Of a stretch of DNA of 64,000 bases, positions 12,078-30,812 are shown piece after piece. The stretch is from positions 434,001-498,000 of the forward strand of contig NZ_JACEFB010000002.1 in NCBI RefSeq assembly GCF_013694095.1. Direction: 5' to 3'. The position numbers and the translations under genes were made by a program. Every line of letters starts with the position of its first letter. The stretch's first letter is position 1. The DNA comes from Thermogemmata fonticola (GTDB lineage Bacteria > Planctomycetota > Planctomycetia > Gemmatales > Gemmataceae). The notes below the pieces were generated by a model that saw nothing but the letters and a program-made list of their open reading frames with translations, was not told the DNA's origin and did no database searches.

Positions 12078-15000
12078 TCAACGTGATTGGGGCGCTTGTG
12101 GTTGCACCAGCAGACGCGGCAGGGGAGGCGGTTGGCGGCTCGCCGCAGCGGTGTAGCCTACCGAAACGGCAGTGGGCGGCAGCTCTTTCGGCGTCCATCC
12201 GCGCAGCCGCTCCCAGGTCAAGAGCATTTTTTCCTCCGGGTGGACTTGCCATTCCTCGTGCCAAAGGGCGGCTTCCAAAGGTCTTGGCAGGGGCAGGTCG
12301 AATGGTGTGCCCGCCGGGAGGGGGAAGGTGCCAGACCACTGCACCGCACCCTCAGTGATGGGACGTTTGAACCAGATGTGCACCACCCCCTGGCTTGTGG
12401 ACCAATCCGCTACATCGGGACCGCGAATTTCCTGCACCGTAACTCCGGGTAACGCAAAGGTCAGGTAACCGGGGGTCGGCGAGTCCTTCCAGAGAAGATT
12501 TCCCTGGGCGAATGCCAGGAGCGGCCGGGGGCTTGAACCCGCGCTGGCTAAGAAGGGGGGAGATAACCAAGCGATGTCCCAAGCGGTGCGGGCTTGGACG
12601 GAAAGCTCCGCAGGCAGCCGTAAGGTGGGGCGCAGTTCCGCGGAGGCAGGAGCCAAGGGGCGGAAGACCCGCAAGGTTTGGGCGGGGTCCAGGCGCAATT
12701 CCGGCACGGAGGAGAAAAGCTGGAAAAGGGCATCAGAGCTGAAGTCGATCAAGCCGTGGCGTTGCAACGACTCCAGGCTTGCGTCCCGGAGCCGCAGAGC
12801 ATAAAACGTATCCGCTTCGCTGACGCCCGGTTGACTGATGCGGGGGAACCGTAACCAGGGTGAGCGCGTGATGGGGAAACGCGGAGCGGCTTGCACCACC
12901 AGCAGCCATCGGCCGGTGGTCGGGGAGCGCCAATCGATGCGTAGCCGCCGCCAACCTCCCTGAGGGGGTGCCAGACTCCAGTTTCGCAGGACGCTTCCTT
13001 CCCCACCGTCCGGAGAACGGATAACTAAGTGGAGCACTTCCAGGTCGTCCGGGATTTGCAGGTCCAATTGGGTGAGGGAACCGCCGAGGATTTCCAGCCA
13101 GTAGGCGGCCGCCAGTTCGGCCCCTTGGGGGTGGAGGTCCCAGAGGCAGGCTTCTCGGAGGCGCAATTGGGCTGTACCGCCTCCTTCCTCACGCCAGCGG
13201 AGCACCACCTGCCGCACCCCTCCCAACTCCGCTTGAACACGTCGATCTGGGGAACGAGTGTCCAGACTCCAGCGTCCCACGCGACCCGGAAAATAGAGTT
13301 GGCGTAGATTCCGCTCGGCATGGACCGTCAGGGTGGTCTGTGGGCATTCGATTGCTCCGAAGCGCAACTCGCGTTCGGCAGTTCCCCCGCTCGCAGAAAG
13401 TACGAACTGGGCGCGGACCTCCTGCCGGCCCTTACCAGGCAGTTCGAGGGCATAAACGCCAGGCCGAACCAGGAGCGGATAACCGAGGCGGTCATGGATG
13501 CGGACCGATTCCAAGCGGGCATCTCCCAGAGGGAGTAAAAACGGTGTTTCCGAATGGTCGAGGACATGCACTACCCACCGTGCCTCGACACGGGCTGTGA
13601 CGCCGTCGAGGAACACATCGTAATGGGCCGAAGTCAAAATCCAACTGGGCGGCGAAGGCCGAAGGCGCGCCAATTGGTCCCACAGCGTCAAGGGAACCAA
13701 AACCTCTTCACGCCCTTGGGCATCCGGCGGAAGCAGCAGCACGGTGGTCATGGCAAGCGGGGCGGAAGCTGACGGCTGGACCTGGCCTTGGGCCTGGAGG
13801 AACGGCCAAAAGGCTCCTTGGTTCAGCATGAGCGTAGCCGGCAGAAGTAACATTGCGGACCCCAGGAGGCGGCGCAGACCCGCTAAGGCCAATCCAGCCA
13901 GTAAGGTCAGACCGCACCCGGTGACGGCAACGTATTGCCACCAAGGCGGAACCACCAGGGCCAATGCCAAACTGATGGTTGCCAGGCCCATTATCCCCAG
14001 AGCCAGTGGACGCCGGTTCCCCAAAAACCCCAGAACCGCCAATGCCGCTCCCGCCACCAGCAAACCGAGGCCCGTTGCTGCCTCGGAGGAACTTGTCCAT
14101 ACACCGGCGTTTGCTGAAAGGGTCCACCAGGAGCCGTCGAGATCGGCGGGAAGGACTTCAGCCAAGTCAGGAAAATGGCGGAGAGGTGGAGAATCCTGTT
14201 TCCCATCGGGCTGGGACAGAGGCAGGACATTCCTAGGCAAAAACAGATGGCATAGCTCCGGAATCTCCTCAGCCCACTGCACAAGCGGAGGGGTCAACTG
14301 CGACCACAGACCATACCGCCGCAAGGGATAGTGACCGCGCAGGATCACGCGGATCGGGTCCTGGGGTGCGGGCAGGGGGATAAGCCATCGCCCATTCTCA
14401 TCGCGAGAACAGGCCGTGGGGGATAACCATTGGCCTTCGATCCCGATCGCTTCGAGCTGCAGGTAAGGATCGAGGGTGACCGGCAGCGCGGCGAGTTCTC
14501 CCGATTTTCCTGCCTTTGCTCCAGGCTGGACGGTCGCACCGGCGACTACGAGGAGGCGTTGATCTCCCCGCACAACTAGCGTCAGGAAGGTGTCATGGAT
14601 CTGAAGGTACGGTGAAGCGTCGGGTGGACGGACAGGAGACGGGGGAGGTGCTGTCGGCAATGCAGGGGATGGTTCTGGCACCTCGGAGGAGGCAGGGAGC
14701 CAATAACCGCGGACGTCTCCCCCGCGATAGCGCAAGACGGTATGAGCTTGGGGCGGGGGAAGGGCGAAATCCCAATCGAGCCAGCCCAGTTTTTCCGTTC
14801 CCGGACCAGGGACAGCCCGACCGCCGTTCGGGGCAGGTGCAATGATCGCCAGCAGTCCGTTGCGTTCGCCAACGTCCAGAGGGGTAATGGCCGGGAAAGG
14901 AACGGCGGTGCTCCCGTGGGAGGCAATCGGCCTGCGGGCAATCCATTCCGCTTGCCATTCCACGATTTGCCCCGCCGGCACAGGGCGCAGCCATTCCAGC

Positions 15001-16586
15001 GTGAGCACGCGCTCCTTCGCATCGACATGGGTGAGCAACGCTTCACCCCCCGCCATCAGGCGCCGCAGTTCATATCCTTCGGGATAGCGGCAGCGGAATT
15101 GAAAGAGCGGCCCCCGTTTTACCTGTAAGCGGATACGGGCGGTTAGACGTGCCGCGGTGCCTTGCAAGTGCCAGATTAGATATTCCTCACTGGCCCCCAC
15201 GCTTGCTTCAGCGGGAATCACCTCCAGTAATGGCGGCTGGCGGCTCGGCCGGCTCGCACCTACGGACAACCAGCTTCCTTGCAATTGCAACTGATGCGTC
15301 TGATCCGAGGCGACCGAAGCCTGGATCAAGCGATAATCCCCCGGTGTGAAATGCCGCAGCTTCCATTCCGGAGCAAGGCGGATGTCGACGGCCTCCCGGA
15401 GCAGAAGACTTTCCTCCACGCGGATGAACGGCAGCGTGAGCTTGCCTGAGGGCGGCAGGGGCGCCACGGCTTGGATCAGCAAGCGTACCGCGGAAGAAGT
15501 TGGCGGCAAAGTCACGAGTAGCCGAGGGTTTGACTGAGGTGTGGAGGATTGCACCGTCCACGTCGAGCGGGGCGTGCTGATGACATCGAGAACTCGCAAG
15601 GTGGGGTCCAAATGGAAGGTCCAAGAGCTGATGTTTCCCCGGACGGGTCGCAAGTCGAATTCGTAAGCGCACGTGAGGTTCATGCCTTGTAGCTCGAAGC
15701 GGCAGCGGCTCTCGGCGGCGGTGGTGGGAGTAGTGGTCGTGGCCGGACGGATGCTTAAGTCCAAGCGGCTGCGGCCGCTGAAGCGGATGTGCCAGCGCTG
15801 CTGGCGGGGCGTACTCGCCGGGAAAGGGCCAGTCACCAGGGCATCTCCCCCTGCCATCGGCACTAGTTCGGGTGCTAAGTCCAGTTCCAGCAGGGCTGTG
15901 GTGGCTGACGGCCAACGCAACTCGAAGCGCCGTTCGTCCAGGGTGACCATGCCCGCCGCGGACCAATTCAGGCGTAGCACTTGGCTGCCGCTGCGCTCGA
16001 CCCAAACGGCCACGGGACCGGAACCATTCGGCGTGCCCACCACGGCGGGGCGGCCGTCGCTCCAAGTGGCACCGCTCAGAGCGACACGCAGCGGCTCCAG
16101 CACCATGAGCCGGGGAGATGGGCCGGGATTGATGATCTCGCATTCCGCTTGTCCGATCAGGTCGTTACCTTCCAGAACCGCGGTCAGACGTAAATCGGCC
16201 AAAAACGGCAGACGGCGCGACTCTTCCAGCATCTGCCGGGCGGCACGAAGTTGCTGTTCCAGTTCCTCGCGGGGCATCCGTCGCACCGGTCCCAGGTCCA
16301 GTTGTTTGAGCACCGCGGGGAGTTGTTCCGGAGTGACACGCAGGCGCCGCAAAGGAATAGGGTCTTCCGATCGCGGGGTGTCGGGGATGGGGGTCTCTGG
16401 AGAGGGCGGGTCCCCCGGAGGGGGGCCGGGAGTGACCGCCGAGTAGGGCTGGCTTGCCGCTGACGGTTCCTGCACTGATCTTACCGTCTCGCTTGAAGGG
16501 GATTGACCCAGAGCGGCCAAACACCCCAGCAGAGCGAGGAGGAAGCTGAATAGACTTCGCCATACAACTCGCAGCCGGTGGATCAT
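12078..16586 (-). CDS. Giant secreted/membrane protein of unknown function (1502 aa)
   Basis: The start ATG lies 14 bases after the stop of the 1168-residue gene upstream, so the two form an operon. A signal peptide (residues 1-28) is followed by a proline-rich stretch and about 800 mostly beta-strand residues. A cluster of three or four hydrophobic segments lies at about residues 832-915 (LGLLVAGAALAVLGFLG and following), then another beta-rich region of about 550 residues up to the C-terminus. The two beta-rich halves would sit on the same or opposite sides of a membrane depending on the number of spans. I recognise no enzyme motif. Repeated W/R-rich strands and similarity in style to its upstream neighbour suggest a shared structural or envelope role. 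Confidence 0.8.
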   Translation of the reverse strand: MIHRLRVVWRSLFSFLLALLGCLAALGQSPSSETVRSVQEPSAASQPYSAVTPGPPPGDPPSPETPIPDTPRSEDPIPLRRLRVTPEQLPAVLKQLDLGPVRRMPREELEQQLRAARQMLEESRRLPFLADLRLTAVLEGNDLIGQAECEIINPGPSPRLMVLEPLRVALSGATWSDGRPAVVGTPNGSGPVAVWVERSGSQVLRLNWSAAGMVTLDERRFELRWPSATTALLELDLAPELVPMAGGDALVTGPFPASTPRQQRWHIRFSGRSRLDLSIRPATTTTPTTAAESRCRFELQGMNLTCAYEFDLRPVRGNISSWTFHLDPTLRVLDVISTPRSTWTVQSSTPQSNPRLLVTLPPTSSAVRLLIQAVAPLPPSGKLTLPFIRVEESLLLREAVDIRLAPEWKLRHFTPGDYRLIQASVASDQTHQLQLQGSWLSVGASRPSRQPPLLEVIPAEASVGASEEYLIWHLQGTAARLTARIRLQVKRGPLFQFRCRYPEGYELRRLMAGGEALLTHVDAKERVLTLEWLRPVPAGQIVEWQAEWIARRPIASHGSTAVPFPAITPLDVGERNGLLAIIAPAPNGGRAVPGPGTEKLGWLDWDFALPPPQAHTVLRYRGGDVRGYWLPASSEVPEPSPALPTAPPPSPVRPPDASPYLQIHDTFLTLVVRGDQRLLVVAGATVQPGAKAGKSGELAALPVTLDPYLQLEAIGIEGQWLSPTACSRDENGRWLIPLPAPQDPIRVILRGHYPLRRYGLWSQLTPPLVQWAEEIPELCHLFLPRNVLPLSQPDGKQDSPPLRHFPDLAEVLPADLDGSWWTLSANAGVWTSSSEAATGLGLLVAGAALAVLGFLGNRRPLALGIMGLATISLALALVVPPWWQYVAVTGCGLTLLAGLALAGLRRLLGSAMLLLPATLMLNQGAFWPFLQAQGQVQPSASAPLAMTTVLLLPPDAQGREEVLVPLTLWDQLARLRPSPPSWILTSAHYDVFLDGVTARVEARWVVHVLDHSETPFLLPLGDARLESVRIHDRLGYPLLVRPGVYALELPGKGRQEVRAQFVLSASGGTAERELRFGAIECPQTTLTVHAERNLRQLYFPGRVGRWSLDTRSPDRRVQAELGGVRQVVLRWREEGGGTAQLRLREACLWDLHPQGAELAAAYWLEILGGSLTQLDLQIPDDLEVLHLVIRSPDGGEGSVLRNWSLAPPQGGWRRLRIDWRSPTTGRWLLVVQAAPRFPITRSPWLRFPRISQPGVSEADTFYALRLRDASLESLQRHGLIDFSSDALFQLFSSVPELRLDPAQTLRVFRPLAPASAELRPTLRLPAELSVQARTAWDIAWLSPPFLASAGSSPRPLLAFAQGNLLWKDSPTPGYLTFALPGVTVQEIRGPDVADWSTSQGVVHIWFKRPITEGAVQWSGTFPLPAGTPFDLPLPRPLEAALWHEEWQVHPEEKMLLTWERLRGWTPKELPPTAVSVGYTAAASRQPPPLPRLLVQPQAPQSR

Positions 16587-16600
16587 CCTAGCACTCTCGC

Positions 16601-19600
16601 TCAGTGGCTTCCGCTGGGGGTCGAGGGGGCGGCGCCCAAGCGCCCCGCAGGGGTGCTATTGCCGCTGATCGGCCCACGCCGGGAACCTGCTGGGAGCAAA
16701 GGTACCTTGCTATCGTGCGCCGGTACATAGGAGGCCGTCTCCCGACTGAAACCCGGTAGGTAAAGAATCTGCCGTTGTCGGTACCACCGCTGAGCGAGGA
16801 TGATGAGACCCGTCGCAGCGGCGGTATACAGCCCAAACTGACCAGCGGCGAACAGTTGCAACAGACTATACGGCGCGAAGGTAAGCCAGGTGGCGAGCAG
16901 CAGCAATGTTGCGATAAGTCCGCCGGTCCGCTTGGCCGACGGCAGGCGGGCCAAGAACACCAGATAAACAAAGACGAAAAGGGAACTGCTCAAGAGCACC
17001 GGCCAGCGGGGCAGCCGCCACAGGGTAAACGATGCCGGTAGAGCTTGTTGACCGCTGAAACTATCAGCTTCCCCTTCGCCATTGTTGGAAGTCCCTCGAC
17101 TGCCGCCTGAGGCGGCATCGCCCATCAGCCAATGTTCGAGTTCTGTTTCCGGCCAAGCCGCCAATGCGATGCCCGTGGATTGCCAACTCCACTGCCACCG
17201 CGGCTGGAACGGCCCTTGCAGCCAAGGAAACGGCCCACCGGCGAGCGTCACGCGCCACCAAGTCGGACCATCCCACGCCGTGCTCGCCAGAACGGGGGGC
17301 ACCAACTCCATTCGCCACCTGGACTCGGAGGACAGTACATAGCGAACTTCCAGCAGCAGGCGGGAAGCCAGCCGATAAGCGGGCAGCGGAATCTGGTAAA
17401 GGGTGGTGCCTTGCTCTGTCCTGCGGTAGGCTAGAGGCTCGACCCGGCGGCCGTCGAGGAGAAATTCCGTACTCAGCGTCGTGGCGGCGGGTAGTTCCAG
17501 AGTCAGCGAGCGTGTCAGCCAGCGCCGCAGGCGGAAGCGCGCCCGATAGCGCAGGCTCGCATCTTCCCCCGCCCAGACCTGGATCAACCCGCGTTCGGCC
17601 CACACCGTGACAGCCAAATCCTGCCGCGGCTCGACCTCTAGCTCCAAGAGGGTTTCCTCTTGGGGGGCACTGAGCACCCGCAGGGGCCAGACGGCCCGAT
17701 CCGCCAGCGCTTCCAAAGGTCTGTCACGCCAGGGCAAGGACCGGACCTGGACCACCTCCGGAGCGGCAGTCGCGGACCAGAGGCGGACGAGATGCTCCCC
17801 TCGCGTGGCTTCGACCACCCGGAATAAATGGATGGGAAGTCGGGACTGCTCCGGAAGTCGCGGCAGAGCATACTCTAGGGTCAGGATCGCTTCACGGCTT
17901 TCTGACGGGAGTGTCCAGCGCCATTGCCCTGGACCGGCGGCTTCCAAAGCGGGAATGGCGGACATGCCGGCGACACTATTGGACCCCTGCAAGTGAACGC
18001 TGCGGGGAAGAGTCTCGCTGGTGCGGAGGCGAACCGTCTGTTGGATGAGGATTTGCCGTTCGGTGAGCGTGATTTCTGCCCGGCTTTCTGCAGCCAAATC
18101 CGGCCGGTAAGGTTTCCATTGCACCTGCACGGCGGCGATCGGCTGCTCGCTGGTAGCTTGCAATTGAGAGGACGAGCCGGTTTTCGAGCCGTTCCGGGGA
18201 ATCGGCTGGAGCACGCCGCCTGTAGCCGCTGCTCGTCCCCCTATCCATTCCCGGTACTGGCCTTGCACCTGGAGGTCTTCGGGGACGGAAATCTGAAGCT
18301 GGGTTTGTGCGATGGCGGCACCGGGAAATCGCGGCAGAGGCAATAGCGACTCCTGGACGGGCTGGGACAGGGGCAGGTGGGCCGTCAGAGTAATCTGCAC
18401 CGGTTGCTTGTAAGTGTTGGCCAAGCGAATGATCAGCGGCACGCGGGGGTCATAGCCGATGCGATGAGCCAAGGCTTGCCAGAAACCCGCCGGTGCGGAG
18501 GGGGCTTCGCTTTGAATGCCTTCAACAATGTCCGGCGGTCCCGCTTCCACACCCCGCCATTCGGGAGGAACCTCTACCACGAGCGCCTCCACTTCCCGGC
18601 GGACCGGCTCGACTTTCAGTTTCGTTTCGATATGCCAAGCGTTGGATTTGAGGGTGGCATGGTAGTGGGGTGTCAGCACGAGGCTGCCGCGCAAGGGGTG
18701 GACTTCCACGGTAGCCAGGGGTTGTGTAGGAAGGTTGTTGCCAGTAGGGCCGGTGGCCAGCCGGAAGAGGGCGGTACTGCGTTCCTCATCGCTCCCCGGT
18801 GCATCCTGCCGCCGCAGGTCGGTGCCGTGGCGCACAGCAAAACGCATGTACGGCCCGGCGATCAGACGCAGGGTGCCCGTTTGGCGGAAGACGTTGAGAG
18901 CAGCAAAAGGCCCCACGGAGAACGGCCCGCGGTGTCCTGTCTCTTCCGGGCGTGGCCGAGGTGTTCGCACACTGGCGACCAACACCCAATCGGCGGGCGC
19001 GGAACCCGGCGGAAACTCGACGAGCCACTCGGCTTTGTTACCGCTGCGCTGGAGGCTCGGCGGCAAGCCCGGACCGATCTCGGCAGAACCTGGCGGCCGC
19101 TCGGCATGCAGGAGCGCGTTGCCGGGAGTGGCGATTCGCCATTGCCGGGCTGTCCCGCGCAACGTGACACGCGCGATCGTTTCCACCGTGGCGTCGGAAA
19201 AGGTCACGGTGATGTCCCATTCCGCGGTCTGAACCCGATCTGCGGCGGGGGTCCGGGCCGGTGGCTCCCAACTTACTTCCAAGGATTCCACCGGTCCTAA
19301 AGGATAACCTCCGCTCTGGCCCGGCGGCGAAGCAAGCTGTCGCATGTCCAATGCGTTGAGACGGCGGACTTCGGGGGGGCGAGTCGGTTGGGACGGGTCG
19401 CTCCAACGTGTCACGAGATTGAGGCGGGGAATGTCCAGGCCGCTCGATTCCACCTGGAGGGTCGTGATCGCTGCGCGCGGCAAGCCGATCTCGAAACCCA
19501 CTTCCCCTTTACCTCCACGGGGGGTGATGGGGGTTTCCAAGTCCAAAACGAGGGTATGTTCTCCCGCTGTCTCGACGGTCGCCAGATAGCCTTCTTCACT

Positions 19601-20107
19601 ACTCTCCAGGACCGGCAGGCGCACCCCGTCGAGGGTTGCAGCGGTCAGTAAGCCCTTGCGGCCGCCCAGCAGCACGCTCGTTTGCGACGCCGTCGTCCGG
19701 AAGGAATTGCTCAGGCGCACCACCGCGACAGACTGCTCTCCGCGCTTTTCGATGCGTACACGAATGGCACACAGGCTTGGCGTGACTGGCTTGCGCGTCT
19801 GGGATTGCTTCCGCCGCTGTTCCAATTCGGCCAGCAGCTTCACGTACTCTTTCCAGGGTACACTGACGCGGTCGCTGCTGCCTTCATTGCCGACCCACAG
19901 CCAGGTCCCGTCCGGGAGGCGGATCGCCCCTTTGCCTTCCGCACTGGGGTTTTCGGAAGGTGTTCCGCTGGGGTTCTTCGTGGCAGGTACTTTGGCCGCC
20001 TTGCTGTCGGCGTCCTGAGCGGTCGTTGGCAGACCACTAGCTGCCAGGAGAACAGCAAGCAGGGCGGCTGCCACGGTTCGCACTGCGATCAGCCCGTTTC
20101 TGGTCAT
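16601..20107 (-). CDS. Giant secreted/membrane protein of unknown function (1168 aa)
   Basis: First gene of a two-gene operon with the 1502-residue protein. A signal peptide (about residues 1-30) precedes a small conserved-looking segment (LPDGTWLWVGNEG) and a helical region with VPWKEYVKLLAELEQRR. After that come about 850 beta-rich residues. The C-terminal region has three or four hydrophobic segments at about 1025-1110 (VLLSSSLFVFVYLVFL and following), then a short polar tail. The predicted layout is a large extracytoplasmic domain held by a C-terminal membrane bundle. No catalytic motif is recognised. Its beta-rich design and its membrane cluster are like those of the downstream protein, which may be a distant paralogue; I could not align them. 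Confidence 0.8.
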   Translation of the reverse strand: MTRNGLIAVRTVAAALLAVLLAASGLPTTAQDADSKAAKVPATKNPSGTPSENPSAEGKGAIRLPDGTWLWVGNEGSSDRVSVPWKEYVKLLAELEQRRKQSQTRKPVTPSLCAIRVRIEKRGEQSVAVVRLSNSFRTTASQTSVLLGGRKGLLTAATLDGVRLPVLESSEEGYLATVETAGEHTLVLDLETPITPRGGKGEVGFEIGLPRAAITTLQVESSGLDIPRLNLVTRWSDPSQPTRPPEVRRLNALDMRQLASPPGQSGGYPLGPVESLEVSWEPPARTPAADRVQTAEWDITVTFSDATVETIARVTLRGTARQWRIATPGNALLHAERPPGSAEIGPGLPPSLQRSGNKAEWLVEFPPGSAPADWVLVASVRTPRPRPEETGHRGPFSVGPFAALNVFRQTGTLRLIAGPYMRFAVRHGTDLRRQDAPGSDEERSTALFRLATGPTGNNLPTQPLATVEVHPLRGSLVLTPHYHATLKSNAWHIETKLKVEPVRREVEALVVEVPPEWRGVEAGPPDIVEGIQSEAPSAPAGFWQALAHRIGYDPRVPLIIRLANTYKQPVQITLTAHLPLSQPVQESLLPLPRFPGAAIAQTQLQISVPEDLQVQGQYREWIGGRAAATGGVLQPIPRNGSKTGSSSQLQATSEQPIAAVQVQWKPYRPDLAAESRAEITLTERQILIQQTVRLRTSETLPRSVHLQGSNSVAGMSAIPALEAAGPGQWRWTLPSESREAILTLEYALPRLPEQSRLPIHLFRVVEATRGEHLVRLWSATAAPEVVQVRSLPWRDRPLEALADRAVWPLRVLSAPQEETLLELEVEPRQDLAVTVWAERGLIQVWAGEDASLRYRARFRLRRWLTRSLTLELPAATTLSTEFLLDGRRVEPLAYRRTEQGTTLYQIPLPAYRLASRLLLEVRYVLSSESRWRMELVPPVLASTAWDGPTWWRVTLAGGPFPWLQGPFQPRWQWSWQSTGIALAAWPETELEHWLMGDAASGGSRGTSNNGEGEADSFSGQQALPASFTLWRLPRWPVLLSSSLFVFVYLVFLARLPSAKRTGGLIATLLLLATWLTFAPYSLLQLFAAGQFGLYTAAATGLIILAQRWYRQRQILYLPGFSRETASYVPAHDSKVPLLPAGSRRGPISGNSTPAGRLGAAPSTPSGSH

Positions 20108-22077: not shown

Positions 22078-22407
22078 CTAACTCAGCGGCTCGACCGTGA
22101 CCTGGAGCGGCTGGGCGCCCCGGTGGACCTGTTCGGGGTCTGGACCGCAAGCCCGAATCTGGTCCGCTTTCAGCTCCGCCACCTCCAGAGGGCCAATCCA
22201 AACCGTGGACCGCCCTTTGTGGTGGGCCTCCAGCATCAAAGCCACGCATCGAGGCCAAGAGTAGCCGAAAACCTTGCGCAGCACCCCGACGACGAATTCC
22301 ATCGTGTTGAGATCGTCATTGTGAAGCACGACGGCATAGGGCGGATGCCGCTGGGTGGTTGTTTCTGGTTCGGTATGTGGTATGGTGGAAGGTAGGGGCA
22401 TGGTCAT
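22078..22407 (-). CDS. clpS: ClpS, adaptor for the ATP-dependent Clp protease
   Basis: 109 residues from the ATG at 22407 (a second ATG is two codons later). ClpS binds proteins with N-degron ends and passes them to ClpA or ClpC. The binding pocket motifs are present: HNDDLNTMEFV (Asn30, Asp31, Asp32) and AHHKGRS around residues 61-67. The length is typical. No clp protease gene is adjacent. A TATAAT-bearing promoter candidate lies about 115 bases upstream. Confidence 0.93.
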   Translation of the reverse strand: MTMPLPSTIPHTEPETTTQRHPPYAVVLHNDDLNTMEFVVGVLRKVFGYSWPRCVALMLEAHHKGRSTVWIGPLEVAELKADQIRACGPDPEQVHRGAQPLQVTVEPLS

Positions 22408-23021
22408 AAGGTCTACCGTGCTTTCCAGTTGCGGGTCCCTTGGAAACCGAGTCTGCCGCCGTCTTGTGGGCTGTCCCTTGCGTGAAGAGCAGGAACTGCT
22501 CTGTTTCGCGGCGCCCCCCATTATAAATCCCGGCGGTCTGGAAGCAATCGGGTCTTGGAGGGTGAGGGCGGGGTGGTGAGGAAGGCCTGGCTGTGGCGGG
22601 GTATTGGGTATAGCGTGGCCAACGGGCCGGGAATCGGTGAAGGTGACGCGCCAAGGCCTGGGGTAGACTTAAGAGCTAAAAGCAGGGACTAAAACATACA
22701 AGGGCCTGGGCCAAAGGCGGGAAAGGCCGCAGGGCTAAGAATTGGGGAAAAAGCCACGAAGGAGCGGGTGAGATGATGAATGTTGTCAGTCGGGTGGGAG
22801 AGGAGTCATCTCCTTTTGAGCAGACGGCAGGCGTTTGAGCCGACGACCGATGAGGGACTTTAGCGGGCCACGGAAGCCTTGCAGCGGCGGCAGAGCCAGT
22901 ACCTCTGTAACAGGTGCTTGCCGCGGAGGTAGCGAATCGATTAGCATGCCGCCAAAGCAGATGGGCGGGAAGTTTTTCCAATCCATGGCGGACGATCACT
23001 CGTCAGACAGGTAGAGAGATC
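22408..23021. other. 614-base intergenic region between divergent clpS and ECF sigma genes
   Basis: Contains the clpS promoter candidate and presumably the sigma gene promoter. A 66-codon open frame on the minus strand (22786-22986) has no recognised similarity and no convincing ribosome site, so it is not called. No repeats or RNA gene were recognised. Confidence 0.6.
22520..22547 (-). promoter_or_regulatory. Probable clpS promoter
   Basis: On the minus strand: TTGCTT (22542-22547), a 16-base spacer and a perfect TATAAT (22520-22525). Confidence 0.45.
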
Positions 23022-23633
23022 ATGGCCAATACCGGCGTGATTCCGAAGGTCCGAGCGGGTAGCGGTCCGGATAGCGCCGCAGCCGTGGCAAACGTGACGG
23101 ACTTGCCTGACCCTCCCAGCCCTGAGGACGCGTTGGTGGGCCTGTTCCAAAAGGTCCGGGATGAGTTGCTCAGCACCCTGATGTACCTGTTGGGGAATCG
23201 GGATGATGCCCAGGATGCGGCGCAGGAGGCGTTTCTGAAATGTTGGAGGAACCGCCATCAGGTGCACGAAATCCGGGATTTGCGGGCGTGGGTTTTCCGG
23301 GTCGCGCTCAACACGGCCAAAGATTATCAGCGCAGCGCCTGGCATCGCAAAACGCGACCGCTGCCGGAGGATGAAGTGATGCTGCCGGGATATGCGGACT
23401 GGGCCGGACAACATGTGGAGGATCAGGAAACTCTCGAACGCTTGCGCCGAGCCATCACGCACCTGCGCCCGGAGGAAAAGGAAGTCTTCCTCCTGCGCCA
23501 AAATGGCGAATTGACTTATGAGCAGATTGCGGAAATCCGGAATGTTCCTGTGGGCACGGTCAAGACGCAAATGCGCTCAGCCCTCATGAAGCTGCGGCAG
23601 GTGTTGAATCCGGAGGCGGGCCGCGGCGACTAG
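23022..23633 (+). CDS. ECF-type RNA polymerase sigma factor
   Basis: 203 residues from the ATG at 23022; the longer frame to 22914 has no start signal. Region 2 spans about residues 45-110 (LLGNRDDAQDAAQEAFLKCW, then the DNA-melting segment RAWVFRVALNTAKDY). Region 4 spans about 145-195 (LRPEEKEVFLLRQNGELTYE and VPVGTVKTQMRSALMKLR). There is no region 3, as expected for an extracytoplasmic-function sigma. An N-terminal extension of about 30 residues is unordered. It sits 90 bases before the ZAS-type anti-sigma-like gene on the same strand, so that protein is its likely partner. Confidence 0.92.
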   Translation: MANTGVIPKVRAGSGPDSAAAVANVTDLPDPPSPEDALVGLFQKVRDELLSTLMYLLGNRDDAQDAAQEAFLKCWRNRHQVHEIRDLRAWVFRVALNTAKDYQRSAWHRKTRPLPEDEVMLPGYADWAGQHVEDQETLERLRRAITHLRPEEKEVFLLRQNGELTYEQIAEIRNVPVGTVKTQMRSALMKLRQVLNPEAGRGD

Positions 23634-23723
23634 CCTCCGCCCGCGAGGACCCCGGCGTGATCTTTCCAGATAAAACCATCCGCCTTTCCCGGCTGGCTGA
23701 GCCGGTAGGGGGAGCCAGTAACC

Positions 23724-26700
23724 ATGATGACGTGCGAACGCTGTGAGCAGTTGCTGCTCGATTATCTTTACGGCCTGGTGGAGAGTACGGAAGCCGAGGC
23801 CCTGGAGGCGCACCTGCGCGCCTGTGCTTCGTGCGCTGCAGCGCGAGGCCGGATGGAGCATTTGCAGAAACTGCTGGCCGCCGCTGCCCGCGACCGTTTC
23901 CCCCATGTCCGCTTCGATCCGCCCCGCTTCCAGGAGTGTCCGGTTCCGCGGCCTGTTTCGCTCCGCCGTGCTCCCTCCCGGCCTTCGCATCCGGCTCGCT
24001 GGCTGGCTTGGGCCGTCGCCGCTGCCATTTGGCTGACAGGACCGCTACTTTTGCTGACCTGGAGCCATCACCGCCGCCAGCTCCAGACCGCCCAGGCGAA
24101 TTGGCAGGAAAGCCGCCAGTCCCTCATGGACATCGAAGGCCAGCTTCGACAGTATCAGCAGCAGCGCGAGCAACAACTGGCGGAAGCCCGCCGCCGCGTG
24201 GCTAGTGCGGAGCAATTGGCCCTTGGCTTACTGGATCGCTGGCTAGCCGAAAGCCGCAAGCTCCAACAAGCAGCGCCCGGTCCTATAGAAATCCACGGCC
24301 CCCCTCGACTCCAAGCGGGCGTTCCTAATCATCTGCTTCTCGTCTGGCGGGACACACGCCTGTCTGCCGGGGGACGCTTGCTCGCCGAGATTCGCGATCA
24401 GAACGATGCCGTCCTCTTCAGCCAACCTCTGGACCCGGAGCGTTCCGGCGAGCGGCAACTGCTGCGCATTCCCGCGCGACTCTGGAGGCAGGTGACGCCC
24501 CAGTCGGAGTTGTTCCTCGTTTTGGTCCGCGAGGATGAACGCACCCGTCATCGCAGCCCGATCCAGGAAAAAATTCGCCTGCAAGGGCCGTTGTATATCA
24601 CCTTCCTCACGACGGATCGCACTCGCTATCGTCCGGGAGAGACGTTGTATTTCCGCTCCCTAACCCTGGATCGGGTGCATTTTCAGCCGCCGCCGCGAGA
24701 ACAGTTTCTGGTCTATGCCCTCAAAGACCAGCATGGCCGGATTGTGTCTGGGCTGACGCAATCGGGGACCACGTCGTTGGTGCGGGCGGAAAACGGCGGG
24801 CAGGTCGTGCCGGTGTCTGGCCCGGATGGCCAACCGCTCCGGGGTGTCGGTTGCGGCGCCTTTGTCCTGCCACTGGACCTGCCCGAGGGGGAGTATGTCC
24901 TCGAGGTGAGCGAGCAGAAACATCCGGCAGGCTATGGCCCCCAAGCCGTTTTGCCGGCCCGTTGTACCGTGCGGATCGAACGGGGGCCGATGGAACAGCT
25001 CGCCAAACGTTTAGATTTCCTCGCCCCGACTTTCCGACCGGGTACGTGGGTTGAGGCCCAAGCCCTGGCCCACTTCCGCGGCCAGCCTGCAGCGAAATGG
25101 AAGGTGGAAGCAGATGCCACGGTGGATGGACATTCGGTCTCGGTGGAATTGACGCCCCACGGACATACCGACGAGCAGGGACTAGTCCGCCTCCGTTTCC
25201 CTCTGCCGCCAGAAGAGCGCTTGCCGCGAGGCGATGTGCGCTTGCAGGTCATCTTTCACACTCCTCAAGGACCGGAGCGAATCGCGCGAGCCGTGCCTGT
25301 CGCCGGTAAGCAGGTGGTCGTCGAGTTTTTCCCGGAAGGGGGACATCTGGTTGCAGGCGTCCCAAGCCGCGTCTATTTCCGAGCTACAACACCGGCCGGC
25401 CTGCCCGTGGATATCAGCGGCTTCATTACCGATGGCCAGAAGACCTTAGCCCACGTCAAAACCCTCCGAGACGCGGACCAGCCGGGTGTTAATCGCGGCT
25501 TAGGCCAGTTTACCTTTACACCAGAATTGGGCCGTCACTACTGGCTCCACCTCACGGAGCCATCTCACCTGAGCGCCCCCCTATTACCCGAAAGCTGGCG
25601 CCGCCAAGCGTCCCCCGCTTCGGTCGCTCTCGTCGGCGTCGCGGGGACTCTGAGCGCTTCCCGCGGCTTTCTGCTTCCCGCGCCCCAACCTTCGGGGGTG
25701 GTGATGCAGGTGCCGCAGCCGGTGACACAGGTAGGGGAGCCAATCCGCGTGCGGCTTTATGCCGTCGGCAAACCGCAGCGCCGGATCGTGGTGGGAGCTT
25801 ACGTTCGTGGCGCCCTGCTGGAAACCCGAACGGTGACGCTGGCCAACGGGCGCTGGGAAGAAGTGGACCTTCTGAGCGATCCCCGCATCACCCTGGGAGG
25901 TGTGGTGCGCCTGACGGTCTATGAAGACTTGTCTCAAAGTGGTGCTGATGCTGATCTCCTCCCGATTGCAGAACGCCTGGTCTTCCGCCACGGCGGGCAG
26001 CGCTTGCAGATTCAGGCGGACATGCGCAAGCTGCCCGTGAAAGGGGCAACGGCTACTTCCCCCTCTGCCGCCGCTTTGCACCTATCGACCTATGACGAGA
26101 AGGGGCGGCCAACTCCGGCGATCCTCTATGCCGCGGTGGTCAACAGTGCGGATGCTCCTGGGCCACAGCAGCGGCTATTGACCACACATTTCCTCGTGGC
26201 CGGAGAAATCCAGTCTCCCGATGGACTGGAGTATGCCGACTTCCTGCTCAGCCAGCATCCCAAAGCGCCGGAGGTGCTGGACCTGGTGTTGGGTACCCAA
26301 GGCTGGCGCCGCTTCCGGGAATGGCCGGCCCCAAAGACAGCACTAGCCGCACCATTGGCTCCTGCCGCTCCCGCTGCTGCCATGCCGCCGATTTCAGACA
26401 AGATAGAGCGGCCTTGGTACGGCTCCTCGCCGGCCCTCATCACGCGACTCGGACCCACCCCGGAAGAGGCCCGCGAGCGGCTTATCGAACAGTACTGGCC
26501 CCGCTACGAACAAGCGATGCACCAATGGGAGCAAGCCCGCCAGCACCTTGCCGAATTGGAAAGCGACCCGCGCCAGCAGGCCATCCTTCAGCAATTCCAT
26601 CTGCGTGTTTTGTCCCAACAAGCGGCGACAGAGCAAGCCAGCTATCAGCAAGAAGCGGCGATGCAAATCTGGCAAGCGTGGCAACAGGCACGTCCTACCA

Positions 26701-28025
26701 TGCTAGCCCTCGGCATTTTCTTCACTCTCCTCTGCCTGGTCGCTGCCGTTCGCCGTTGGGGCGACCCCCTGCCTTGGGGAGTCAGCACCGCCGGACTGCT
26801 CTTCTCGGTCCTGGCAATGTGGTTCCTCCTCGATGGGGACAGAACTTTGCAAGGTGCGGCTCGTCCCCACGGCGATCCTCACGCCGCGACATCGGCTCAG
26901 CAGGTCGGCGAGAACAGGTTGCCCAAGTCCGCTGAGTCTGCTTTATCCACTCAGGGTGGGCAGTCTATGTTCCGTCTGAAGGAGTTGGGGCAATTCCCTC
27001 ACCCTGCTAATATTCCAAACCCTGCCGCTGCGCTTCCTAGCGTTGCTTCGACGTTACCCGAATTTTCCAACAGAACTCCAGGATCACTCCAGAATAAAAT
27101 GGAGTTGCCGCGAATAGACGCAGGGTCTCCCGCCCGGTCTGGCATCCTTGGCCCTGATAAAGACCGGACGGCTATGGAACTGGCTGGCCTGCCCCCGCCG
27201 AAGCAAGGAAGTTTTGGGAAAGCCCCAGCCGCACGCATTCCCCTGGATTGGGCACAGGAGCGAAACGAGGAAGCTCGGCGGCGCCAGAATGTTGGTTCCA
27301 CGGGAGGGGAACCAAACCTGCCCTATTCCGTCAGGCCGCCTCGATTTCCAGGACAACCACCCCCCTCTCCGGCTGCCTCGACGAATGTGCAAGCTGGACC
27401 CGTCTCACCGGGTGGAAGTGGCATTGGTGCGGCCTTGCCGGACCGTGGAGGCCCAGCAGAGCGGGAAATGACCGATCGCGCCCGCAAAGTTCAGGAGCAA
27501 ATCCAGGAGCTTAGCCGAAGTCTCGCCCAAGCTGAGGCCCTCGCCCAGCGGCTGAACTATAACCGTGCCGAGTTGTTGCAACGGGCCTGGGAACTCAAGC
27601 AGACGAAGGAGGGGCCAGAGGCTCTCCGTTCCGAGCACGACTCAGTTCCCAGCAGGCTAAAGTTAGAAACTGTGAGAACACCCTCGGCGAAAACGCGGCA
27701 ATCTTCGGAGCCTGACAACAAACAGGACGAGGCGAATCAACGGCAGAACTGGCAAGTGTTGGAGTTGCTTCCGCCAGCCGCTCCTCCCCTGGTGGTCCGG
27801 GAATACGCCCCAGCGTTACCCCTGCCCGACTCACACCAGTCTGGAGACACCCTCCTGTGGATGCCCGTGATCATTGTCCCTGAAAGCGGCCAAGTGCAAC
27901 TGCCACACGTCCTGGGAACGGCGCAGGGAGGGTATGACCTCATTGTGGCCGGCCATACCCAAGACGGTCGGCTGGGAGCAATCCGGACGCCGCTGTCGCA
28001 GATTTCGCCTCAACCGAGCCGTTGA
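23724..28025 (+). CDS. Giant ZAS-type anti-sigma-like protein with alpha-2-macroglobulin (MG2) domains
   Basis: 1433 residues. The N-terminus has a zinc-finger anti-sigma signature with Cys4 or Cys7 plus His30-x3-Cys34-x2-Cys37 (HLRACASC). A transmembrane helix at about 94-114 is followed by a Gln-rich coiled coil (about 118-175). From about 285 an MG2-like macroglobulin domain begins (FLTTDRTRYRPGETLYFRSL), then further MG-like domains, including one near residue 535 with EFFPEGGHLVAGVPSRVYF. No thioester motif (CxEQ) is present. Two more hydrophobic segments lie at about 990-1036, followed by a 390-residue low-complexity C-terminal tail. It probably holds the ECF sigma inside the cell while the macroglobulin part lies outside. 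Partnership with the sigma is inferred from adjacency. Confidence 0.85.
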   Translation: MMTCERCEQLLLDYLYGLVESTEAEALEAHLRACASCAAARGRMEHLQKLLAAAARDRFPHVRFDPPRFQECPVPRPVSLRRAPSRPSHPARWLAWAVAAAIWLTGPLLLLTWSHHRRQLQTAQANWQESRQSLMDIEGQLRQYQQQREQQLAEARRRVASAEQLALGLLDRWLAESRKLQQAAPGPIEIHGPPRLQAGVPNHLLLVWRDTRLSAGGRLLAEIRDQNDAVLFSQPLDPERSGERQLLRIPARLWRQVTPQSELFLVLVREDERTRHRSPIQEKIRLQGPLYITFLTTDRTRYRPGETLYFRSLTLDRVHFQPPPREQFLVYALKDQHGRIVSGLTQSGTTSLVRAENGGQVVPVSGPDGQPLRGVGCGAFVLPLDLPEGEYVLEVSEQKHPAGYGPQAVLPARCTVRIERGPMEQLAKRLDFLAPTFRPGTWVEAQALAHFRGQPAAKWKVEADATVDGHSVSVELTPHGHTDEQGLVRLRFPLPPEERLPRGDVRLQVIFHTPQGPERIARAVPVAGKQVVVEFFPEGGHLVAGVPSRVYFRATTPAGLPVDISGFITDGQKTLAHVKTLRDADQPGVNRGLGQFTFTPELGRHYWLHLTEPSHLSAPLLPESWRRQASPASVALVGVAGTLSASRGFLLPAPQPSGVVMQVPQPVTQVGEPIRVRLYAVGKPQRRIVVGAYVRGALLETRTVTLANGRWEEVDLLSDPRITLGGVVRLTVYEDLSQSGADADLLPIAERLVFRHGGQRLQIQADMRKLPVKGATATSPSAAALHLSTYDEKGRPTPAILYAAVVNSADAPGPQQRLLTTHFLVAGEIQSPDGLEYADFLLSQHPKAPEVLDLVLGTQGWRRFREWPAPKTALAAPLAPAAPAAAMPPISDKIERPWYGSSPALITRLGPTPEEARERLIEQYWPRYEQAMHQWEQARQHLAELESDPRQQAILQQFHLRVLSQQAATEQASYQQEAAMQIWQAWQQARPTMLALGIFFTLLCLVAAVRRWGDPLPWGVSTAGLLFSVLAMWFLLDGDRTLQGAARPHGDPHAATSAQQVGENRLPKSAESALSTQGGQSMFRLKELGQFPHPANIPNPAAALPSVASTLPEFSNRTPGSLQNKMELPRIDAGSPARSGILGPDKDRTAMELAGLPPPKQGSFGKAPAARIPLDWAQERNEEARRRQNVGSTGGEPNLPYSVRPPRFPGQPPPSPAASTNVQAGPVSPGGSGIGAALPDRGGPAEREMTDRARKVQEQIQELSRSLAQAEALAQRLNYNRAELLQRAWELKQTKEGPEALRSEHDSVPSRLKLETVRTPSAKTRQSSEPDNKQDEANQRQNWQVLELLPPAAPPLVVREYAPALPLPDSHQSGDTLLWMPVIIVPESGQVQLPHVLGTAQGGYDLIVAGHTQDGRLGAIRTPLSQISPQPSR

Positions 28026-28169
28026 CGCCGCCGCGGATGCCGCCTGCACGTTTTCTGCTGATCCCGCCGATGGCGCCGCTAGGATCGGCCTTGCCCCTCC
28101 CATTTCCTTACTGTCCCGGTGCAATGCGCCCCGCTTTCTGGCCGATAGGCGCCATCAGGGGTACTACGC

Positions 28170-29225
28170 ATGATGCCGAGGAACCAAACCAAAGCCAAAG
28201 GTCCGAGCCACGCGCGCGTTCCGCGGTGGGTTTTTCCCACTCTCGGCGTGATCGTGCTGGGAGTCGGCTTGCCGCTGTCGGTTCGCGCTCAAACCGTCGC
28301 TGTCATCGGCACTGAAACCGGAGGAGTTCCGGCCCCAGATGCCGGCCGGGTCGAAGAATCGGGAGTTTCGGGACCAAAAACTGCTTCCGACCCGCCCTCA
28401 CCTCTACCCTCTGGCAAAGCGGTGGAGCCTTCAGGCCATCTGATCCGGCGTAAGGACTGGGAAGCCCGCCTCAAACCCGTTTCTCCCTTACCTCCTGCGG
28501 CAGAAGCGCCGCGGTGGAACATCACAGCCGCAGTCGGCCCCCCCTTCGGGCCGGGGTACTATCCCAGCGGTTGGCCTTACGGACCCCGCGTGGCGCCGCC
28601 CTGGAGTTATCCCGGTTTGGCCGCTGGTCCCTATGTGGGTTATCCCTGGGGTTTTCCAGGTTATTCTGCGCGGGCCGGCAGTTTCTGGTCCAATGGTCTG
28701 AGTCTCTATGGTCCGCCTGTGCCAGTGTACGGTCCCATTCCGGGGGTTTTTGGTAACGAAGACTTGGTCCGCCAATGGCGCGCGGTTCCTAATCCCGGTT
28801 TCCCGTTTGGATGGGTGGGCATTTTCGCGGCCTCGCCCCGCGTGAAGAATCCCACTGTCCGCGTCTGGCCCGCCCTGGAAGCAATCGGCGAAACCACTCC
28901 GGGCCACTCTCCCAGCATCGCTCCCAGCACGCCGGATGCGCCGCTTCCAGGATCAACCCTCCCCTTGCCTCGCCCCACGTCGTCCGCCGGATGCCTTACC
29001 CTCTCCATCCGCGTACCCCAACCCGCCGCTGAGGTCTGGATCAACGATTACAAAACGCAACAGACCGGGTTGGAGCGGTTGTTTGAATCTCCTCCCTTGC
29101 CAGAGGATCGCTTGTACGACTACCAGGTGACGGTCCGCTGGCAACAGGGGGGACAGTGGCGGCAGGAGAGCCGGCGGGTCCAGGGCCGCCCTGGCGAAGT
29201 CCTGCGCGTGGACTTTACCCGATAA
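28170..29225 (+). CDS. Secreted TIGR03000-domain protein with Gly/Pro/Tyr-rich region
   Basis: 351 residues. A signal segment is at about residues 20-40 (WVFPTLGVIVLGVGLPLSV). The middle (about 115-200) is rich in Gly, Pro, Tyr and Trp (PYVGYPWGFPGY and similar). The C-terminal 75 residues match the planctomycete TIGR03000 domain pattern: strands with VRVPQPAAEVWINDYKTQQT, then FESPPLPEDRLYDYQVTVRW and GEVLRVDF. The domain is a lineage marker with no known biochemistry. The gene follows the macroglobulin-like gene by 144 bases on the same strand, so the two may be co-expressed. Confidence 0.85.
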   Translation: MMPRNQTKAKGPSHARVPRWVFPTLGVIVLGVGLPLSVRAQTVAVIGTETGGVPAPDAGRVEESGVSGPKTASDPPSPLPSGKAVEPSGHLIRRKDWEARLKPVSPLPPAAEAPRWNITAAVGPPFGPGYYPSGWPYGPRVAPPWSYPGLAAGPYVGYPWGFPGYSARAGSFWSNGLSLYGPPVPVYGPIPGVFGNEDLVRQWRAVPNPGFPFGWVGIFAASPRVKNPTVRVWPALEAIGETTPGHSPSIAPSTPDAPLPGSTLPLPRPTSSAGCLTLSIRVPQPAAEVWINDYKTQQTGLERLFESPPLPEDRLYDYQVTVRWQQGGQWRQESRRVQGRPGEVLRVDFTR

Positions 29226-29556
29226 CTGACATATGGGGGCGATTTCTTCGCTCGAAAGGTCGAGGAACACACGCTGGGAAGGGGCCGCATCACCTCCGCA
29301 GTGACTTCAGAGAGCGAGTTTACGTCAGGGAGTGAGTTTACTTCAGGGAGCGAGCCAACTCTGGAATCCTCGATGTGACGGATATGTCTCACCTCAAAAC
29401 CTTCTGTGTCGGCCAGGCACAGAGGGCGTGTTGGGGCGGTCCTTGCCGGGGGTGCATGTGCATCCTTTCACGCGATCGTCCGGCTTGGCATTGCCTTTGC
29501 ATCCCTCCCTAGTCGGGTCGGAACACGCCGCATGGACCATTCCGGAGGGAGACATC
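29226..29556. other. 331-base intergenic region with an 18-bp tandem repeat
   Basis: Between the TIGR03000 gene and the DUF2267 gene. The only clear structure is the three-unit tandem repeat at 29307-29360. No promoter or terminator was called. Confidence 0.6.
29307..29360. repeat. Tandem repeat, three 18-bp units
   Basis: Units start at 29307, 29325 and 29343 (consensus TCAGGGAGYGAGTTTACK). The third unit is diverged at its end. On the minus strand it would encode a repeating SLPEVN-type peptide within a spurious open frame. Confidence 0.85.
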
Positions 29557-29982
29557 ATGAGCCAAACAGGATTGGAAGCCTTCGACAGCACGATTCAGAC
29601 GACCAACATCTGGCTCAACGGGATCATGGAGCGGATGGGTTGGACAGATCGACATCGGGCGTATAGTGCCCTGCGGTCGGTGCTGCATGCGTTGCGGGAC
29701 CATATGACCGTGGATGTGGCGGCTTCGTTTGCGGCTCAGCTTCCTTTGCTCATCCGCGGGGTGTTCTACGAAGGCTGGCATCCGGCGGGCAAACCGATCA
29801 AAGACCGCCATCGCTCGGCCTTTCTGGAGCAGGTCCGTCGCGAGTTTCGGGGCTACCCGGAGGCCGACATCGAGGAAGTGGTCAAGGCGGTGCTGCAAGA
29901 GATCTCACGCCATGTCACGACGGGGGAAGTCGAAGGGGTGAAGCAAATCCTCCCCCATGAAATTCGGGCGCTTTGGCCGTGA
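29557..29982 (+). CDS. DUF2267 family protein
   Basis: 141 residues from the ATG at 29557, which has GGAGGGAG upstream. The whole protein matches the DUF2267 pattern: a helical start (IWLNGIMERMGW), RAYSALRSVLHALRDHMTVD, LPLLIRGVFYEGW and a C-terminal helix pair. It is soluble and cytoplasmic. The family's role is unknown, although members often lie near stress or carbon-metabolism genes. The HPF-like gene follows after 266 bases on the same strand, which would fit a stress context but does not prove one. Confidence 0.85.
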   Translation: MSQTGLEAFDSTIQTTNIWLNGIMERMGWTDRHRAYSALRSVLHALRDHMTVDVAASFAAQLPLLIRGVFYEGWHPAGKPIKDRHRSAFLEQVRREFRGYPEADIEEVVKAVLQEISRHVTTGEVEGVKQILPHEIRALWP

Positions 29983-30248
29983 CCACCTGAGTGGGTTTCG
30001 GAACAGACGGGTCCATCCCTGCGCACAGGACGGAATGGCAGGGGGCAGGCAAAGATAGGAGCCTCCCTGCTCTTCCGTCTCGGTGTTCCTTCGGGTATCC
30101 TAAACGCGAATGGGCTGCCGTTTCTTCCCGGATGGAACGCCGCAGTTCCCTCAGCGGGTAGCCCGAAAGGAGGGAGTTAGAGCTGCTCGTGCTACGGTGG
30201 CAAATCTCAACCCAGCTTCCCGACAATGAGGAAAAGGAGAGCTTGTCC

Positions 30249-30812
30249 ATGCAACTGCCCATGCAGATCACCTTCCACAACATGGAACCGGATGCGGATG
30301 TCGAACAGATGGTCCGGGAGCGGGCCAATAAACTGGAACGATTCTACGAACGCATCATGTCCTGCCGGGTGGTGATCGACATTCCTCACCGCCATCACAA
30401 AAATGGCAACATGTATCAGATTCGGCTGGATATTACTGTGCCTGGCGGGGAGATTGCCGTCTCGCGGGAAGCACCGGGCCACACTCCGGCCAAGGCCCTC
30501 CCGATTGCGATCAAGGAAGCGTTTGAAGCGGCCATCCGCCAGTTGGAGGATTACGTCCGCAAGCTGCGGCATGATGTCAAGCACCTGGAATCTCTGCCGC
30601 ACGCCAAGGTCCGGATCGTCTTCCCCGATCAGGATTATGGCTTCCTGATCACTGCGGATGGGCGGGAAATCTACTTCCACAAGAACGCCTTGGTCAACGC
30701 GGAGCTGCGGGACTTACAGCCGGGGACCGAGGTGGCCTTTGTGGAGCAGATGGGGGAGAAGGGACCCCAGGCCAGCACCGTGCGGGTGGTGGGCCGGCAT
30801 GGCCACGCTTGA
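30249..30812 (+). CDS. Ribosome hibernation factor (HPF/RaiA type) fused to a cold-shock-like domain
   Basis: 187 residues from the ATG at 30249, with AAGGAGAG upstream. Residues 1-110 follow the S30AE ribosome-hibernation fold (QITFHNMEPDADVEQMVRER, then a central RVVIDIPHRHH and a second helix rich in Lys/Arg). Residues about 120-185 follow a cold-shock OB-fold pattern: VFPDQDYGFLITADGREIYF, FHKNALVNAEL and GEKGPQASTVRVV. HPF-type proteins bind the small ribosomal subunit and silence it under stress. The cold-shock part could add RNA binding. Usual long HPFs instead carry a dimerisation domain, so this is a different fusion. Confidence 0.88.
   Translation: MQLPMQITFHNMEPDADVEQMVRERANKLERFYERIMSCRVVIDIPHRHHKNGNMYQIRLDITVPGGEIAVSREAPGHTPAKALPIAIKEAFEAAIRQLEDYVRKLRHDVKHLESLPHAKVRIVFPDQDYGFLITADGREIYFHKNALVNAELRDLQPGTEVAFVEQMGEKGPQASTVRVVGRHGHA

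Follow-up and report, generated by a model that had tools for sequence, protein, structure and literature searches.

Organization of the locus

The window analysed here is a stretch of 64,000 nucleotides from Thermogemmata fonticola (GCF_013694095.1, contig NZ_JACEFB010000002.1, positions 434,001-498,000), and its coordinates are used throughout. It contains a gene for an extracytoplasmic function (ECF) sigma factor followed by one for a large membrane protein predicted to unite an anti-sigma domain with a macroglobulin ectodomain, and a third gene lies directly downstream.

23022..23633, + strand: ECF sigma factor, 203 amino acids (Sigma70_r2, Sigma70_r4_2, TIGR02937)
23724..28025, + strand: predicted anti-sigma factor with macroglobulin ectodomain, 1433 amino acids (profiles, hydropathy, AlphaFold, fold matches)
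28170..29225, + strand: secreted or anchored protein with a TIGR03000 domain, likely of the same operon (TIGR03000, 54.7 bits against a cut-off of 43.1)

The sigma factor (ATG at 23022) matches Sigma70_r2 (PF04542) and Sigma70_r4_2 (PF08281) far above the Pfam cut-offs and TIGR02937 with 90 bits, and it carries sigma-70 regions 2 and 4 within its 203 residues with no large region 3, as is typical of the ECF group. A spacer of 90 bases separates its stop codon from the start of the anti-sigma gene. A preliminary description of this DNA, made from the letters alone, had listed an ECF sigma factor, a 90-base gap, a 1433-residue protein and a TIGR03000 protein as third gene, and the profiles and coordinates agree with it on all of these.

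An anti-sigma domain joined to a macroglobulin ectodomain

The 1433-residue protein can be divided into the following parts, where MG stands for macroglobulin, TM for transmembrane and pLDDT for the predicted local distance difference test.

23724..23930, + strand: zinc-binding anti-sigma domain, residues 1-69, with ligands C4, H30, C34 and C37 (zf-HC2, profile hits in the PDB, AlphaFold helices)
24003..24059, + strand: TM1, residues 94-112, the start of a long helix spanning 94-182 (hydropathy, AlphaFold)
24279..24593, + strand: first MG-like beta domain, residues 186-290 (VIA against complement C3/C5 MG domains, Z 8-9)
24561..26321, + strand: macroglobulin domain array, residues 280-866, with MG2 at 293-345 (MG2 profile, Foldseek, VIA)
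26694..26831, + strand: TM2-TM3 hairpin, residues 991-1009 and 1018-1036, with a positively charged loop (60 of 60 aligned rows)
26850..27788, + strand: hypervariable, largely disordered segment, residues 1043-1355, at the position of the bait region (clade identity, low pLDDT)
27789..27998, + strand: retained start of the A2M domain, residues 1356-1425, after which the thioester domain is missing (alignment with PF00207 of relatives)

Residues 4-38 match zf-HC2 with 24.0 bits (cut-off 22.2), or 28.7 bits when the N-terminus is searched in isolation, and the Hx3Cx2C motif reads HLRACASC. The ligands C4, H30, C34 and C37 are invariant among 24 aligned N-termini, 22 of which match zf-HC2. A profile of residues 1-69 built from 24 sequences and run against the whole PDB returned anti-sigma factors in all of its top four places, namely RslA (3e-5), RsiW, RsrA and DdvA; the best of these is listed as a conserved membrane protein, which we take to be RslA. 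In the AlphaFold model the N-terminus forms helices at 4-15, 21-33 and 35-56, followed by a single long helix (94-182) that starts from the membrane span. The ZAS-type zinc finger with His30, Cys34 and Cys37 of the preliminary description is therefore borne out by a profile match over cut-off, by the anti-sigma factors that head the PDB hits and by the invariance of the ligands. A helical N-terminal Hx3Cx2C domain homologous to known anti-sigma factors, encoded beside a sigma gene, places the protein with the class I zinc-binding anti-sigma factors, and the domain would be expected to bind and inhibit the adjoining sigma factor. A fold search with residues 1-292 was uninformative on the anti-sigma helices, since the majority of its matches were immunoglobulin-like and came from the beta domain.

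The tandem MG domains that characterize the macroglobulin/complement superfamily, which includes protease-trapping proteins of the animal immune system, are found on the other side of TM1. MG2 is matched at residues 293-345 with 31.9 bits (E 1.8e-7), 0.9 bits under the Pfam cut-off of 32.8. In an AlphaFold model of residues 270-1433 (mean pLDDT 71, the MG part mostly above 85) the fold is that of the complement/A2M family, members of which (C3, C5, alpha-2-macroglobulin, CD109, TEP1 and the A2M of Escherichia coli) occupy all of the top 50 Foldseek matches; VIA aligns the model to C5b with a Z score of 20.4 over 516 residues and to E. coli A2M (ECAM) with Z scores of 17.8-18.2. The matches of the preceding domain at 186-290 are weaker and not exclusive, as unrelated SKICH domains score equally high in VIA. 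MG domains from about residue 285 had been recognized in the preliminary description, which suggested an MG2 profile search and a structural comparison of residues 280-990 with MG2/A2M domains, and both searches find them. Taken together, there is little doubt that the window protein is an anti-sigma factor with a macroglobulin ectodomain. Chance or mis-assembly as the source of the fusion was rejected because dozens of genomes carry the same fusion in intact reading frames.

Hydropathy predicts three membrane spans, so that the single span placed at 94-114 in the preliminary description corresponds to TM1 (94-112), and two further helices had been missed. These two form a hairpin whose loop, summed over the 60 aligned rows, holds 167 arginine and lysine against 22 aspartate and glutamate residues; by the positive-inside rule the loop is therefore cytoplasmic and the C-terminus outside, and the C-terminal strands would lie on the same side of the membrane as the MG domains. 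Beyond the hairpin, within the clade of close relatives to which the window protein belongs, residues 1043-1355 show 12% identity and lengths of 190-370, compared with 48-55% identity for the anti-sigma, MG and A2M parts. This hypervariable segment lies C-terminal to the BRD/MG6 part and ahead of the A2M domain, where the bait region of macroglobulins is located, and would be a putative site of cleavage. No other stretch is as well conserved within the clade as the residues that follow (1356-1425; 55% identity). They are modelled as confident beta strands, which align with the part of A2M that directly follows the bait region and with the corresponding part of C5. To our knowledge no macroglobulin described before has a membrane hairpin where the bait region would be, and the arrangement appears to be new.

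Distribution of the fusion and linkage to sigma factors

Relatives of the window protein were found in 92 of 95 Gemmataceae genomes, representing all 39 genera. The 80 named loci fetched for comparison (denoted by L numbers) belong by title nearly all to Planctomycetota; L084 and L147, which are otherwise labelled, are probably mis-binned. A profile of the window sigma factor finds a sigma gene directly upstream in 60 of the 71 testable named loci, a count that rises to 64 after visual and NCBIfam checks (adding L092, L111, L107 and probably L119), and the linkage of the two genes in relatives that the preliminary description had predicted is thus upheld. In an even sample of the class comprising 49 genomes, every sampled member of the family gives a match; outside the order matches occur in 4 of 37 genomes, all of them weaker, and a fusion was seen there once by eye, in L238, which combines a zinc-less anti-sigma-like N-terminus with a TM segment and MG2.

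One whole subclade lacks the zinc ligands and keeps the architecture. Its partner sigma factor has been swapped at some loci, for a TIGR02989 protein over cut-off at L111:8850-9428 and for a divergent type at L107:4308-5027 and L119:3-923.

Probable secondary loss of the thioester domain

The window protein contains no CxEQ motif, as had been noted before, and so does not have the thioester domain by which type I alpha-2-macroglobulins are defined. Most of its relatives do: they are 1800-2100 residues long and present MG2, A2M, TED_complement (E ~1e-32) and the motif P-x-GCFEQ-T/S, and a PDB search with one full-length relative leads to human alpha-2-macroglobulin (~3e-24). In a tree of the MG region, which is unrooted, with no root inferred, and in which L143 and L148 form long branches, the 13 thioester-less rows of the window clade (100% support) fall in a set of 20 rows that includes seven thioester-bearing ones (97%). 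The presence of the motif requires five changes on this tree, and none of 500 shuffles was as low; L131 keeps the domain and not the motif. The simplest reading is that the window clade lost the thioester secondarily, L142, L144 and others having lost it independently, and the position of the clade among thioester-bearing sisters does not favour absence as the ancestral trait. The window sensor may then be regarded as a shortened form of an anti-sigma factor that once carried a complete, membrane-bound macroglobulin.

Three full-length relatives, L131, L063 and L059, lack GCxEQ; the thioester domain of L131 is still recognized, a state resembling that of MagD. The TED_complement profile had no match in the T. 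fonticola genome. The same genome does encode a stand-alone bacterial-type macroglobulin of 2011 amino acids (L161:4815-10850, contig C2 near 283831) with a CSEQ motif, MG2, A2M and bMG10 domains and TPR repeats, which has no anti-sigma part and lies near a probable M28-like aminopeptidase.

Conserved promoters and neighbouring genes

Two candidate promoters precede the sigma gene.

22917..22947, + strand: distal sigma-70-like promoter, CTTGC-N20-TAGCAT (kept in 15 of 15 clade members)
22979..23004, + strand: proximal ECF-type promoter, CAATC-N17-CGTC, 43 bases 5' of the sigma start codon (conserved in clade and family)

In each of the 15 clade members the proximal element, whose spacer is variable, is located 42-43 bases 5' of the sigma start codon, and across the family it precedes the sigma gene at 40 of 56 loci, counted from a fixed point inside sigma and not from an extrapolated start, compared with 0.085 expected from shuffled sequence. 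The distal element, in the form CTTGC-N20-TASSAT, is likewise present upstream of sigma in 15/15 clade members (shuffles: mean 0.045, maximum 1). Because CGTC is a familiar -10 element of ECF promoters, it is natural to suppose that the sigma factor likely autoregulates its own operon through CAATC-N17-CGTC. The exact motif is absent at five loci of the zinc-less subclade whose partner sigma factor is of a different family (L099, L108, L109, L111 and L116). The TIGR03000 gene lies directly 3' of the anti-sigma gene in all 12 clade loci with DNA there; a search for an exact CAATC-N17-CGTC of its own found none, and it is therefore probably read through from, and likely part of, the same operon.

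The motif also occurs just 5' of four orphan macroglobulin genes, all of them zinc-less and with no sigma gene beside them.

L106:223-248: CAATC-N17-CGTC directly 5' of a macroglobulin gene
L110:2892-2917: the same
L114:1137-1162: the same
L127:161-186: the same

Two of the encoded proteins (L110 and L114) carry the thioester, and the sequences of the other two (L106 and L127) are cut. Since the same promoter precedes these genes in four relatives, the sigma factor may induce macroglobulin traps in trans, which the four loci suggest as a lead and not as a demonstrated regulon. Genome-wide, 35 sites were counted in T. fonticola (G000) against 17 for a reversed control, and 53 against 31 in a sister genome (G073). 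This roughly twofold excess hints at either a wider regulon or an effect of base composition; a few of the sites precede secreted proteins, the majority lie in unlikely contexts, and no target is claimed from them.

Elsewhere in the window, a gene for a ClpS adaptor (22078-22521, - strand) diverges from the sigma operon, genes for a DUF2267 protein and an S30AE ribosome hibernation factor that also has a cold-shock domain follow it downstream (29332-30812, + strand), and two adjacent genes (12078-20107, - strand) encode very large proteins of 1502 and 1168 amino acids, neither of which has a Pfam family over cut-off.

Discussion

The domains, the topology signals, the gene linkage and the promoter conservation are observed directly, and from them we infer the binding of the sigma factor, the trigger, the proteolysis and the regulon. 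The pair is best described as an ECF sigma factor with a transmembrane class I anti-sigma factor in which a macroglobulin serves as sensor. The zinc domain would hold the sigma factor on the cytoplasmic side while the MG domains form a sensor outside the cell; at the bait position the chain would re-enter the membrane as a hairpin and exit again, so that beyond an exposed variable segment the terminal strands could complete the macroglobulin fold. Once a protease of foreign origin, or one released under stress, has cut the variable segment, or the fold has been opened in some other way, the anti-sigma factor would be exposed to a membrane (M50) protease, and the sigma factor freed by intramembrane proteolysis would turn on its own operon, encoding sigma, sensor and TIGR03000 protein, from CAATC-N17-CGTC. 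That the ectodomain senses proteolytic or envelope attack and in response releases the sigma factor is the explanation we regard as probable, whereas the chances that proteolytic cleavage is the main trigger appear evenly balanced. The preliminary description had already proposed that cleavage of, or damage to, the macroglobulin part reports attack to the sigma factor, and the hairpin and the variable segment at the bait position make this more plausible. Cleavage of the bait region itself has precedent in bacterial macroglobulins (PMC3328433; PMC5764988).

Several observations weigh against this explanation. The MG2 score falls just short of its cut-off, and the A2M remnant on its own had no hit in Pfam and is recognized only through alignment with relatives. 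Several zinc-less paralogues have no adjacent sigma gene, so an anti-sigma role need not extend to the whole family. Neither a cleavage site nor a site-1 protease was found, and the several M50 protease genes of the genome are weak evidence because such proteases are nearly universal.

The ectodomain of RsiV, the anti-sigma factor of SigV in Bacillus and other Gram-positive bacteria, is presumably not a macroglobulin and is unrelated to that of the window protein; nor does RsiV have a membrane hairpin inside its sensor domain. It is nevertheless the closest working precedent, as a membrane anti-sigma factor with an extracytoplasmic sensor which is reported to be a receptor for lysozyme and to be destroyed by intramembrane proteolysis upon the signal (PMC5014341; PMC4183432). 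By analogy, the window ectodomain might bind a specific protein or envelope component with no bait cut, binding permitting cleavage by signal peptidase or a site-1 protease. We consider this somewhat unlikely: the RsiV precedent speaks for it, as do MG domains (49% identity) that are better conserved than the variable segment and the loss of the thioester domain in the window clade, which renders covalent trapping dispensable there, but simple binding leaves unexplained that the bait position retains a hairpin and a variable segment and that the strands after them show 55% identity.

The absence of the thioester had been read in the preliminary description as the mark of a sensor rather than a trap, which is too simple given that the loss in the clade appears to be secondary and that most anti-sigma relatives keep GCFEQ; it is also unsafe because MagD, a type II macroglobulin of Pseudomonas aeruginosa that has no thioester and is associated with the inner membrane, traps proteases (PMC5764988). 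MagD and the window protein share the lack of a thioester. However, only the motif is missing from MagD, which contains no anti-sigma domain and depends on its partner MagB to attach to the membrane, whereas the window clade is without the whole thioester domain, and its neighbours are a sigma factor and a TIGR03000 gene instead of the partners of the Mag operon. The MagD precedent, the full thioester macroglobulin of most relatives and the apparent autoregulation of an operon that encodes the macroglobulin are all consistent with a protein that is mainly a membrane-anchored inhibitor, its anti-sigma end gauging how much intact trap is left so that spent traps are replaced; yet a clade that has dispensed with the thioester domain and all beyond it, a loss seemingly repeated several times, renders this improbable. 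That the zinc finger itself senses cytoplasmic oxidation as RsrA does, the macroglobulin being unrelated to signalling, is highly improbable, for although the four ligands are invariant in the zinc-bearing relatives examined and RsrA is among the profile hits, a whole subclade has lost them with the architecture retained, the zinc site of membrane anti-sigma factors is thought often to be structural (PMC7406223), and a 1300-residue ectodomain would be left unexplained.

Anti-sigma factors with sensory ectodomains and bacterial macroglobulins are each already known. RslA, RsiW and RsrA of class I share the N-terminal helices and the Hx3Cx2C motif with the window protein and are its best profile hits in the PDB, but none is known to carry a macroglobulin, and the word MG2 is absent from the main text of the classification of class I anti-sigma factors (PMC7406223), which was also not one of the papers containing anti-sigma together with macroglobulin. 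The type I A2Ms of E. coli (ECAM) and Salmonella (SaA2M) share the fold of the MG array (VIA Z 17-18) with the window protein, whose thioester-bearing relatives have MG2, A2M, TED and GCFEQ. In ECAM there is a lipoprotein box, and the genes for ECAM and PBP1c are linked (PMC3328433); the window protein instead begins with an anti-sigma domain, forms a membrane hairpin where the bait region would be and is partnered by a sigma factor. No relevant paper on an anti-sigma factor with a macroglobulin or MG2 domain was found in the part of the literature searched, and the combination of both in one protein, its bait-position hairpin and the promoter conserved before the sigma gene are apparently new, a partial search being no proof of this.

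In its fullest form the proposal would make a complement-like macroglobulin the transmembrane alarm of Gemmataceae, in which proteolysis of the bait frees the sigma factor, renews the alarm through CAATC-N17-CGTC and in some species induces separate traps, with thioester-less sensors and thioester-bearing effectors as a bacterial counterpart of innate immune sensing; we offer this as a tentative picture that is rather unlikely to hold in all its parts. A macroglobulin-anti-sigma fusion with its own promoter provides a direct genetic read-out of the role of a bacterial macroglobulin and of whether cells register that they have been hit, as a CAATC-N17-CGTC reporter would show which proteases or insults engage the macroglobulin. 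The fusion would also add a complement-like fold to the sensor repertoire of anti-sigma factors, and it may couple extracellular damage directly to transcription.

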